Positions 30,449 through 33,934 of a stretch of DNA of 36,419 nt are shown here, one piece after another. A program made the position numbers and the translations under genes. Location of the stretch: positions 1-36,419 of the forward strand of contig CATLEM010000010.1 of NCBI GenBank assembly GCA_949916155.1, in the 5' to 3' direction. The notes below the pieces were generated by a model. The model made no database searches, had not been told where the DNA came from, and saw only the letters and a program-made list of their open reading frames with translations. The stretch is from an uncultured Dorea sp. (GTDB lineage Bacteria > Bacillota > Clostridia > Lachnospirales > Lachnospiraceae). Positions within the stretch are counted from its first letter, which is position 1. Each line of letters begins with the position of its first letter.

Positions 30449-30994
30449 TTATGACATCACGCTGAGCACCATCTGAGCTGTCTCTGCCATATTTGTACCG
30501 CTGTCCATACTGCACTTCTGTATATATCTGTGCGCTTCCTCCTCAGTCATATGGTTTCGTTCCATAAGAAGTTCTTTCGCCTTTTTGATCAGTGCCTGCT
30601 GCTTTGGATCGCGCTTTTTTATCTCCTGCCTTTTCTTTTTCCTGCGCCGTTCCAGATTCGTGAGCATCATTTCCATCGTATTGATGAAATCATATGCCTT
30701 AAGAGGCATGGAAAGCCTGATCACACCTTCCTCCTCACCGCCGTTCCATTTATCCGGCGATGCCAGTACCAGCATGTCAAACTCTCCGGGAAGATATTCC
30801 CGCAGATCCGTATACATCATATCCTTTAGCCTGCAGCCGCAGACCACGATCCCCTCGTCAACCGTATCTGCATAATGGATCGCCTGCGCGCCGCCTGTAC
30901 ATACTCCAGTGACATTCATCCCGTTTCTCACCAACAGATTCCGGATATTGGCGGCGTTGTCTTTATTCGGAAATACAACGATGATCCCAACCAA
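30449..30994 (-). CDS. ANTAR-domain antitermination regulator with degenerate receiver
   Basis: This 181-aa protein has an N-terminal receiver-like domain (residues 1-110) and a coiled, basic linker (ERRRKKKRQEIKKRD). The C-terminal ANTAR RNA-binding domain spans about 120-178 (IKKAKELLMERNHMTEEEAHRYIQKCSM). The usual phospho-acceptor Asp is absent: the strand reads GIVVCGCRL, so signalling by phosphate is doubtful. ANTAR proteins prevent terminator formation in leader RNAs, and this gene lies directly after glnA, whose leader has a terminator with an overlapping ANTAR-type hairpin. The start codon is TTG at 30994, well placed behind AGGAGG. It is 44 bases downstream of glnA and probably co-transcribed. 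Confidence 0.9.
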   Translation of the reverse strand: MVGIIVVFPNKDNAANIRNLLVRNGMNVTGVCTGGAQAIHYADTVDEGIVVCGCRLKDMMYTDLREYLPGEFDMLVLASPDKWNGGEEEGVIRLSMPLKAYDFINTMEMMLTNLERRRKKKRQEIKKRDPKQQALIKKAKELLMERNHMTEEEAHRYIQKCSMDSGTNMAETAQMVLSVMS

Positions 30995-31038: not shown

Positions 31039-32370
31039 TCAGATCCTCTGCAGATATCTTGAAATCTCCCATTCTGTAACCTGCGAACTGTACTCGGCAT
31101 ATTCCTTCTGTTTTGCCCTCAGATACTTCTTTGACAGATCTTCACCGAGAACATTCTGGATAAACGGATCCTTCTGAAATTCTCCCGCCGCTTCCCTAAG
31201 ACTCCCCGGAAGCTTCTCAATTCCCGCTGTCCTTCGCTCCCCCTCAGTCATATCATATATACTGCGGTCTATACTGTCCGGCGGCATAATCTTTCTTTTA
31301 ATCCCGTCAAGCCCTGCCGCAAGGCAGACCGCCAGTGCCAGATACGGATTAGCTGAAGGATCCGGACTTCTAAGCTCAATCCTTGCAGAATCGCCCCTCG
31401 TGCCCGGTATACGGATCAGCGGCGTACGGTTCTTCGCGGACCATGCGATATAGACTGGCGCTTCATACCCTGGTATCAGCCGCTTATAAGAATTAACTAC
31501 CGGGTTGGTGATGAAACTGACTGCTTTCATATGCTTCATGATCCCCCCGATAAAATAATAAGCTTCCTGGCTGATTCCATTGGGATCCTCCTCATTCTGG
31601 AACACATTGATCCCGTCTCTGCTCAGAGACATATTAATATGCATACCAGAGCCATTGATCCCGTATTTCGGCTTCGGCATAAATGTGGCATGCAGTCCGT
31701 GACGCTTGGCAATCGTCTTGACGACCAGCTTAAAAGTCATGATATTATCCGCCGTTGCCAGCGCTTCATCATAACGGAAGTCAATCTCATGCTGGGCAGG
31801 CGCCACCTCATGATGCGATGCTTCAATCTCAAATCCCATATCCTCAAGAGTCAGCACCATGTCACGTCTTGCATTCTCTCCCAGATCCAGCGGCCCCAGA
31901 TCAAAATATCCTGCATGTTCATGGGATATTGTTGTCGGCTGCCCGTCTTCGTCCGTGTGGAACATGAAAAACTCACACTCCGGCCCCACATCGAAAATAT
32001 ATCCCATCTCCTTTGCTTCCCTGAGAACCTTTTTCAGAATATACCTCGGGTCACTCTCAAACGCCGTCCTGTCTGCCTTATACACATCACAGATCAGTCT
32101 CGCCACCTTACCCTGCTGTGGGCGCCACGGAAATATTTCAAAGGTATTTAAATCCGGATACAGATACATATCTGAATCCTCAACTCTGGCAAAACCCTCG
32201 ATGGAAGAGCCGTCAAATATGACCTGGTTATCCAACGCCCGCTCAAGCTGATTGGCCGTCACCGCGATATTTTTCATCATACCGAAGATATCTGTAAACT
32301 GCAGGCGGATAAACCCAACATCTTCCTCCTGCACCATGCGCAGAATATCTTCTCTTGTAAACTCATTCAT
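31039..32370 (-). CDS. glnA: glutamine synthetase type I
   Basis: This 443-aa enzyme makes glutamine from glutamate, ammonia and ATP and is the key step of nitrogen assimilation. The GSI signatures are clear: FDGSSIEGFARVEDSDM, the metal-binding GPECEFFMF, HHEVAPAQHEID, NGSGMHINMSLS, and RIPGTRGDSARIELRSPDPSANPYLA. Length fits the GSI-alpha group of Firmicutes, which are not adenylylated. ATG at 32370 is chosen over 32376 because GGAGG is seven bases away from it. The leader just upstream contains a strong terminator, and the ANTAR gene follows, so expression is probably set by antitermination. A small membrane protein gene lies upstream in the same direction. Confidence 0.97.
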   Translation of the reverse strand: MNEFTREDILRMVQEEDVGFIRLQFTDIFGMMKNIAVTANQLERALDNQVIFDGSSIEGFARVEDSDMYLYPDLNTFEIFPWRPQQGKVARLICDVYKADRTAFESDPRYILKKVLREAKEMGYIFDVGPECEFFMFHTDEDGQPTTISHEHAGYFDLGPLDLGENARRDMVLTLEDMGFEIEASHHEVAPAQHEIDFRYDEALATADNIMTFKLVVKTIAKRHGLHATFMPKPKYGINGSGMHINMSLSRDGINVFQNEEDPNGISQEAYYFIGGIMKHMKAVSFITNPVVNSYKRLIPGYEAPVYIAWSAKNRTPLIRIPGTRGDSARIELRSPDPSANPYLALAVCLAAGLDGIKRKIMPPDSIDRSIYDMTEGERRTAGIEKLPGSLREAAGEFQKDPFIQNVLGEDLSKKYLRAKQKEYAEYSSQVTEWEISRYLQRI

Positions 32371-32384
32371 CACCATTCCTCCTC

Positions 32385-32429
32385 AAAAAATGAGCGCTCT
32401 CATACAAGGATGAGAACGCCGTTGTCCAC
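32385..32429 (-). promoter_or_regulatory. glnA leader attenuator with ANTAR-type hairpin
   Basis: On the minus strand GCGTTCTCAT-CCTTGT-ATGAGAGCGC makes a 10-bp stem (one G-U pair) followed by TCATTTTTT, an intrinsic terminator only 15 bases before the glnA start codon. An alternative hairpin GTGGAC-AACGGC-GTTCTC (32412-32429) has a hexaloop with A1 and G4, as in ANTAR substrates, and uses part of the terminator's 5' arm. The two folds exclude each other. A second, upstream ANTAR hairpin (P1) was not found with confidence. Confidence 0.65.
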
Positions 32430-32450
32430 ATGTGTCAATTATTGTCTTTT

Positions 32451-32672
32451 TTATTCTTCATCATCAAGCCAGTATTCATCCTCAAGCTCGTTGTAGACAT
32501 TTCCATTATTATTGCCGCAGCTGATGCCTTTCTTGATCGGCGCCAGCAAGAATCCCTTGATCATTCCAAACATCACGCAGCATAACACTACCAGTATCTT
32601 TTCTGACATCGTCCAGTCTCTCTTAAAGAAATCCTTTACCGATGTACACATATTTCCCAAGCACTCTAACAT
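32451..32672 (-). CDS. small membrane protein upstream of glnA (73 aa)
   Basis: I do not recognise the family. The product has a short basic N-terminus (VKDFFKRDW), one membrane helix (KILVVLCCVMFGMIKGFLLAP) and an acidic C-terminal tail (NELEDEYWLDDEE). ATG at 32672 follows GGAGG by eight bases; the track start seven codons upstream has no site. A TATAAT box at 32716-32721 could drive it, and because no promoter is visible between its stop and glnA, both are probably on one transcript passing through the glnA leader terminator. It could be a nitrogen-related membrane peptide or unrelated; no function is claimed. Confidence 0.7.
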   Translation of the reverse strand: MLECLGNMCTSVKDFFKRDWTMSEKILVVLCCVMFGMIKGFLLAPIKKGISCGNNNGNVYNELEDEYWLDDEE

Positions 32673-32766
32673 ATACCTGTCCTCCTTCACCATTCGGATT
32701 GCTGTAACTTTTTTTATTATATACTAATTCTCTTTGAAATAAAAGTCTTTTTGTTACAAATTCAGA

Positions 32767-33556: not shown

Positions 33557-33802
33557 TCACAGCTTTGCCGTCAGTGTTTTCGCGCTGACTCCCTTTATCA
33601 TCCCGAGCTTTCCGGACAGGGAGCTGGTGGCATCCCCCGGCGCGTCCAGCACAACGCTGATGATCGACACTTTTCTCTCCCGGTACGGGATACCCATGCG
33701 CCCCACAATATACTGCCGAAATTCATGGAGCAGGTCATTTACTGCCCCTGCCGCGTCCTCTTCCCTAATGATGATGCTGATCACTGACACTCTGTTATCC
33801 AT
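33557..33802 (-). CDS. TM1266-family iron-only hydrogenase system putative regulator
   Basis: This 81-aa protein matches the TM1266 family by its start (MDNRVSVISIIIREED), the core LLHEFRQYIVGRMGIPYRERKVSIISVVLDAP and the end LSGKLGMIKGVSAKT. The fold is ACT-like, as in the NikR C-terminal domain, and the family is linked to [FeFe]-hydrogenase maturation genes (HydE, HydF, HydG), none of which are in this window. It may sense a ligand or metal as a small dimeric regulator. ATG at 33802 follows GGGAGG by five bases; the track start at 33838 is out of frame with any site. A good promoter lies at 33935-33963, with a leader that contains short upstream frames. Confidence 0.88.
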   Translation of the reverse strand: MDNRVSVISIIIREEDAAGAVNDLLHEFRQYIVGRMGIPYRERKVSIISVVLDAPGDATSSLSGKLGMIKGVSAKTLTAKL

Positions 33803-33934
33803 ATATACCTCCCTTATAGAAGAAAAATCACCGTTCATTCGAAGTCATCTCAGACTCCTCCCTCAGAACCTCCTCTTTGCATCTGTGTATCTTACAATTC
33901 CACTTTACTTTCATACCAGCTATAACTACAATTC

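Follow-up and report, generated by a model that had tools for sequence, protein, structure and literature searches.

A single hexaloop hairpin at the predicted 5' end of clostridial glnA transcripts as a probable ANTAR antiterminator

The glnA leader of an uncultured Dorea sp. is probably a one-hairpin ANTAR antiterminator, with its single hairpin at the predicted 5' terminus of the transcript. By "the window" we mean the whole stretch of DNA that was analysed, 36,419 nucleotides in length. The one-hairpin reading draws together sequence, conservation, covariation, position beside predicted promoters, gene linkage, and co-occurrence.

Two mutually exclusive structures in the glnA leader

The features of the leader and its surroundings are as follows.

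33557-33838, minus strand: TM1266-like iron-only hydrogenase regulator gene, upstream of the glnA region
32451-32693, minus strand: small 80-aa membrane-type ORF directly upstream of the glnA leader, with no Pfam match
32438..32467, minus strand: predicted weak sigma-70-like promoter, TTGATG, 18 nt, AATAAT, recognized from the sequence and from the TTGACA-N17/18-TATNAT found at the same place in relatives
32410..32431, minus strand: predicted antiterminator hexaloop hairpin (P2-type), from sequence, covariation, and folding energies
32393..32420, minus strand: intrinsic terminator stem-loop, from sequence and folding, its 5' arm overlapping the hexaloop hairpin
32385..32390, minus strand: terminator T-run, from sequence
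32378..32384, minus strand: glnA Shine-Dalgarno sequence GAGGAGG, from sequence, invariant in the window's genus
31039..32370, minus strand: glnA, encoding a type I glutamine synthetase, with 32370 as the revised start
30449..30994, minus strand: NitR-like ANTAR protein with a TTG start and a receiver-like N-terminal domain, the predicted hairpin binder

The terminator stem with T-tail that the first-pass annotation had placed before glnA is confirmed, with the T-run at 32390-32385. Its 5' arm, GGCGUUCUCAU (32420-32410, minus strand), and 3' arm, AUGAGAGCGCU (32403-32393, minus strand), form 11 pairs, G-U included, around the loop CCUUGU, at -15.8 kcal/mol and with z = -4.5 for the 32-nt terminator segment. 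The alternative hairpin that the same annotation had drawn over the terminator's 5' arm, with hexaloop AACGGC (A1 and G4), also stands, and it is conserved and covaries in relatives. Its core consists of GGAC (32427-32424), the loop (32423-32418), and GUUC (32417-32414); across one U-U mismatch, AUG/CAU lengthens it to AUGUGGAC/GUUCUCAU, taking the energy from -1.1 kcal/mol for 4 bp to -3.9 kcal/mol. Because the terminator 5' arm includes GGC GUUC, which is the second half of the hexaloop plus the hairpin 3' arm, the two structures are mutually exclusive. As long as the window RNA is a prefix of ~21-30 nt and the terminator 3' arm has yet to emerge, the hexaloop hairpin is its minimum-energy fold.

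The ATG listed for glnA, at 32376, is missing in four relatives of the same genus, all of which start at the equivalent of 32370, after the Shine-Dalgarno sequence GAGGAGG; the start is therefore taken as 32370, M3 of the listed ORF, which agrees with the earlier description of a T-tail 15 bases before the start. As had also been proposed, there is no space for a promoter after the terminator, the T-run directly adjoining the Shine-Dalgarno sequence.

When the upstream 30 nt were shuffled, 9.5% of the shuffles gave an A1/G4 hexaloop hairpin of at least 4 bp overlapping the terminator arm, so the window sequence by itself is not decisive. The hairpin is settled by the comparative data: across relatives it is conserved, covaries, and keeps its position.

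Conservation and covariation of the hairpin

We searched 299 genomes of the family for homologs of the ANTAR protein and compared the regions upstream of them. The gene order first seen in the window, with the ANTAR gene after glnA, holds in essentially every relative: of >100 family loci checked, essentially all have glutamine synthetase directly 5' of the ANTAR gene. Hairpin instances were selected by promoter and loop without using pairing, and about 57 glnA-ANTAR leaders selected in this way carry the hairpin. A1 is conserved in 57/61 leaders, A2 and G4 each in 61/61, and the closing C-G in 58/61.

Covariation in the alternative stem had been set beforehand as a refuting test, and the stem does covary. 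The alignment of 57 stems has 25 double-change cells against 9.6 +/- 2.3 expected (0/500 shuffles), and 91.9% of its cells are paired, versus 44-59% when the arms are slid by 1-3 columns. At pairs 2-4, departures are G-U in 41 cases versus A-C in 2, which therefore points to RNA pairing and not to a DNA operator or dyad. When 107 leaders are placed on a GlnA tree, pair 4 shows 12 changes in its 5' base and 14 in its 3' base, yet the two taken together change only 19 times, and approximately seven changes thus coincide; a test of independent pairs on the same tree goes in the same direction, with too few supported pairs for significance.

The 3' half of the hairpin pairs with the terminator 3' arm in most leaders. 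Counting against the one-hairpin reading, roughly 40% of the glnA leaders in the set have no clear cassette (promoter plus hairpin) within 260 nt. The Lacrimispora-type glnA leaders (L239, L241-L246, L251, L254, and L256) deviate (TGTTATATTTTACACATATGACGGGGTGGTGC) and lack the hexaloop A1. The window leader and 20 related loci gave no Rfam match over the gathering score.

Promoter position and the missing P1 hairpin

A typical leader promoter consists of TTGACA, 17-18 nt, and TATNAT, often TG-extended. In 53 of 55 leaders the -10 of the best promoter, chosen as the best site anywhere upstream, stops 5-13 nt short of the hairpin stem. Transcription initiates ~7 nt past the -10, and the transcript would therefore begin at the hairpin itself, so that a P1 hairpin has no room. 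Upstream A1/G4 hexaloop hairpins with 4-bp stems are present at shuffle level, in 8/117 leaders compared with 5.6 +/- 2.3 in shuffles. The first-pass annotation had found the P1 hairpin not evident and had offered two explanations, a divergent P1 or a system that needs only one hairpin. The absence is now confirmed, and with neither room for P1 nor an excess of upstream hairpins, the second explanation is the better one and applies to a whole class of leaders.

A normal two-hairpin ANTAR target, with a more distant upstream start site and a divergent P1 that has gone unrecognized, is an unlikely alternative but the strongest of those considered. It would accord with the requirement of EutV for P1 (PMC3369931), with the weakness of the window's own promoter, and with a 5-bp A-U hairpin with loop ACAGAA that lies just upstream in leaders L228 and L229 of the genus. 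That hairpin was rejected as a P1 candidate, no upstream hairpin being common to the members of the genus, and both the regular position of the best promoters and the shuffle-level frequency of upstream A1/G4 hairpins speak against a two-hairpin target.

The window's own start site, a prediction from sequence, is the weakest part of the anatomy. Its promoter's -10 lies 10 nt ahead of the hairpin stem, and because the -35 is degenerate in the window's genus, an upstream start that includes the 80-aa ORF is possible there. This ORF ends about 25-30 nt upstream and is conserved in the genus; it is also present in Faecalicatena (L230), where a TTGACA promoter lies between the ORF and the hairpin. 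The layout speaks against a glnA transcription start beyond the terminator, since the T-run abuts the Shine-Dalgarno sequence in five genus members and since the near-consensus promoter of most relatives lies directly upstream of the hairpin. The text of a C. phytofermentans TSS study (PMC5171806) makes no mention of glnA. Both the promoter geometry and the regulon described below had escaped the earlier annotation.

The ANTAR protein

The window ANTAR protein passes the curated cut-off of PF03861 with 61.9 bits versus 27.3. Its predicted fold (pLDDT 87.6) consists of a receiver-like domain, a long helix, and an ANTAR bundle; among PDB structures it matches those of EutV, Rv1626, and AmiR. In the alignment with EutV, glycine occupies the position of the phospho-acceptor Asp54, so activation by phosphorylation is unlikely; the protein shares the receiver-like fold of phosphorylated response regulators of the EutV type without their phospho-acceptor aspartate. 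Activation through a partner protein or a ligand is more likely, by analogy with AmiR.

Among 101 homologs, M163 (EutV M172) is invariant, and the position of the G4-stacking Tyr164 is histidine in 99. Relative to the RNA contacts of EutV, the subfamily carries Y164H, R168Q, N173D, R175G, and R177N, the changes from R168 to R177 applying to most members, and K143/K147 are not conserved; these differences count against the ANTAR antiterminator reading. A link between the loss of K143/K147 and the loss of P1 was considered and dropped, because residue 147 is mostly arginine in the cassette-bearing genomes of other families. The ANTAR proteins of those genomes share AHR[Y/F/H]I[E/Q]K-[A/S]MD.

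The cassette precedes other nitrogen genes

A covariance model (R1) of promoter and hairpin was run on 299 family, 295 order, and 291 class genomes, in draws that partly overlap. The strongest family matches are nearly all upstream of glnA-ANTAR. In genomes across Clostridia the cassette also precedes amt/PII (glnK), PII alone, glnN (GSIII), gltB-type glutamate synthase, asnB, a glutamine amidotransferase, gdhA, nadE, carA, glmS, and SAICAR synthetase, assigned with the help of Pfam. The short GltB-like proteins at L177 and L210 had no Pfam match and are presumed to be such from their resemblance to glutamate synthase subunits. One member of the window's genus (G057) carries the cassette 51 nt ahead of glnK-amt. 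In the window's own genome, an assembly that is 77% complete, neither a PII gene nor a second convincing cassette was found. The hairpins of 31 non-glnA leaders also covary strongly, with 31 double changes versus 11.4 +/- 2.2 expected (0/500 shuffles), a figure obtained with a search model that itself rewards pairing.

Outside the family, an ANTAR protein is encoded in 35 of 37 cassette-bearing genomes, versus 4/10 genomes without matches and 3/5 in which the only matches are false ones to LexA boxes. In many of these cassette-bearing genomes the ANTAR gene lies within the operon that the cassette heads; in several of them (for example G321, G596, G848, G806, G591, G367, G789, and G695) it is located ~7 kb past a gltB cassette on the same strand. 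Within the family, all cassette matches with E <= 0.001 are in ANTAR-positive genomes except that of G137, whose contig ends within glnA. Because other ammonium and glutamine genes in related genomes are headed by the same cassette, the ANTAR protein probably runs a nitrogen regulon.

Several matches fall outside this pattern. LexA/SOS boxes (GAACN4GTTC) beside sigma-70 promoters mimic the cassette, and searches must exclude them; the recA leader L166 and leaders L175, L181, L312, L318, L320, L322, and L326 were set aside on this account. Within the order, one family has a similar promoter-proximal hairpin ahead of pyruvate formate-lyase (L203, L215, and L218), and the terminator of L203 takes in the 5' arm of the hairpin; these matches, together with those before atpB (L331) and dapF (L313), may be false. 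In the window's genome, the ilvN leaders L182 and L183 (G000:C148) have a consensus promoter and an AAACAGA-ACGCAC-TCTGTTTTT hairpin. They match mainly through the promoter and were rejected as cassettes, and are possibly another short leader. L165 (G174:C50) is a complete promoter, hairpin, and terminator cassette with no co-directional gene directly downstream, and is possibly an orphan or decoy RNA.

A model for antitermination, and its alternatives

In the proposed mechanism, RNA polymerase would start at, or a few nucleotides before, the hexaloop hairpin (stem RAC/GUY, loop AANGGC, with A1 and G4). With the hairpin unbound, the terminator formed by its 3' half and the following sequence would stop transcription before glnA. 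When active, which we predict to be under nitrogen limitation, the ANTAR protein would bind and hold the hairpin, the terminator would not form, and glnA-ANTAR would be transcribed in a positive loop that uses no second "recruitment" hairpin P1. The interaction between protein and RNA is suggested by the conserved gene linkage, the co-occurrence, and the A1/G4 hexaloop; we infer binding, antitermination, and signal in general, and for the window itself the start site as well.

It is improbable that the cassette is instead a separate short terminated RNA, a decoy titrating the ANTAR protein, and that glnA has a promoter of its own. ANTAR-element sRNA decoys are known for eut, several relatives have 100-200 nt with weak promoter-like sites between terminator and glnA, and the cassette at L165 would suit such a role; but the T-run of the window, like that of four genus members, leaves no place for a promoter before the Shine-Dalgarno sequence, downstream promoter candidates score below the upstream promoter, and many different nitrogen genes are preceded by the cassette. 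Slightly less probable still is a GAAC-N6-GTTC dyad over the start site serving as a DNA operator for a repressor, with an incidental terminator, because, although the dyad lies just downstream of a strong promoter and the model picked up similar-looking LexA boxes, the excess of G-U over A-C departures is expected of RNA and not of DNA, the conserved loop AANGGC is asymmetric, the 3' half pairs with the terminator 3' arm in most leaders, and the cassette co-occurs with ANTAR proteins.

Extending one-hairpin antitermination to the whole group, we lean slightly towards a wider scenario in which a distinct ANTAR subfamily, with the recognition helix AHRYI[E/Q]K-[SA]MD and histidine in place of the G4-stacking aromatic residue, co-evolved in Clostridia with the one-hairpin 5'-terminal element. 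The result would be a global nitrogen regulon in which antitermination acts at consensus promoters that would otherwise be constitutive, with neither a recruitment hairpin nor phosphorylation.

Comparison with known ANTAR systems

In Clostridium saccharobutylicum, glnA and nitR are linked in a cluster, which the window resembles in its ANTAR regulator and its nitrogen genes. NitR is described as an ANTAR protein through which GS/GOGAT genes are induced by antitermination when nitrogen is limiting (PMC6316151, citing Stutz 2007), and the literature searched gave no account of a one-hairpin RNA element there. The Clo1313_2030-2036 glutamate synthase cluster of C. thermocellum includes an ANTAR gene, as do the cassette operons headed by gltB, and its authors suggested antitermination; the available portion of that paper was not found to describe an RNA element (PMC4676874). 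It is established that ANTAR proteins control nitrogen genes, among them those for GS/GOGAT (NitR, PMC6316151) and for glutamate and glutamine synthases (PMC3369931). The AmiR/NasR leaders are likewise a case of ANTAR antitermination of nitrogen genes, and AmiR also has a pseudo-receiver domain (PMC8934654), but Ramesh 2012 assigned two hairpins to these leaders (PMC3369931) and the sensing partners differ.

The published ANTAR RNA element is a dual hairpin, defined by Ramesh 2012 as P1 and P2 stem-loops with a short linker of 5-12 nt in E. faecalis eut, and the database searches demanded both (PMC3369931). The cassette has the hexaloop with A1 and G4 (57/61 and 61/61), a stem of at least 3 bp that is structural and not sequence-specific below the closing pairs, the overlap of P2 with an intrinsic terminator, and an ANTAR protein encoded in the same genome (the window, and 35/37 genomes outside the family), but it has one stem-loop and not two. 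Searches for dual hairpins would by construction miss a one-hairpin regulon, which offers an explanation of the control of ammonium assimilation in many gut Clostridia.

The EutV/EutW eut leaders of Enterococcus faecalis (PMC3369931, PMC8934654) share with the glnA leader the A1/G4 hexaloop, a short stem over the terminator 5' arm, and an ANTAR protein with an EutV-like fold. Unlike them, the glnA leader lacks P1 and has its hairpin at the predicted 5' end of the transcript, and the window protein, unlike EutV, lacks the phospho-acceptor aspartate and has histidine at the position of the G4-stacking Tyr164. Both hairpins are needed by EutV in vivo, and deletion of the second abolishes binding (PMC3369931); EutV also binds each isolated hexaloop with similar affinity, and from the structure of its RNA complex a single hexaloop emerged as the minimal binding motif, which leaves open the need for two when a dimer binds only one (PMC8934654). 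No one-hairpin 5'-terminal ANTAR element was found described in the mainly open-access literature searched. The element described here would work like an ANTAR antiterminator and yet falls outside the two-hairpin definition, and is apparently an undescribed, simpler version. A natural and widespread one-hairpin system would make the two-hairpin question raised for EutV (PMC8934654) directly testable by comparison.
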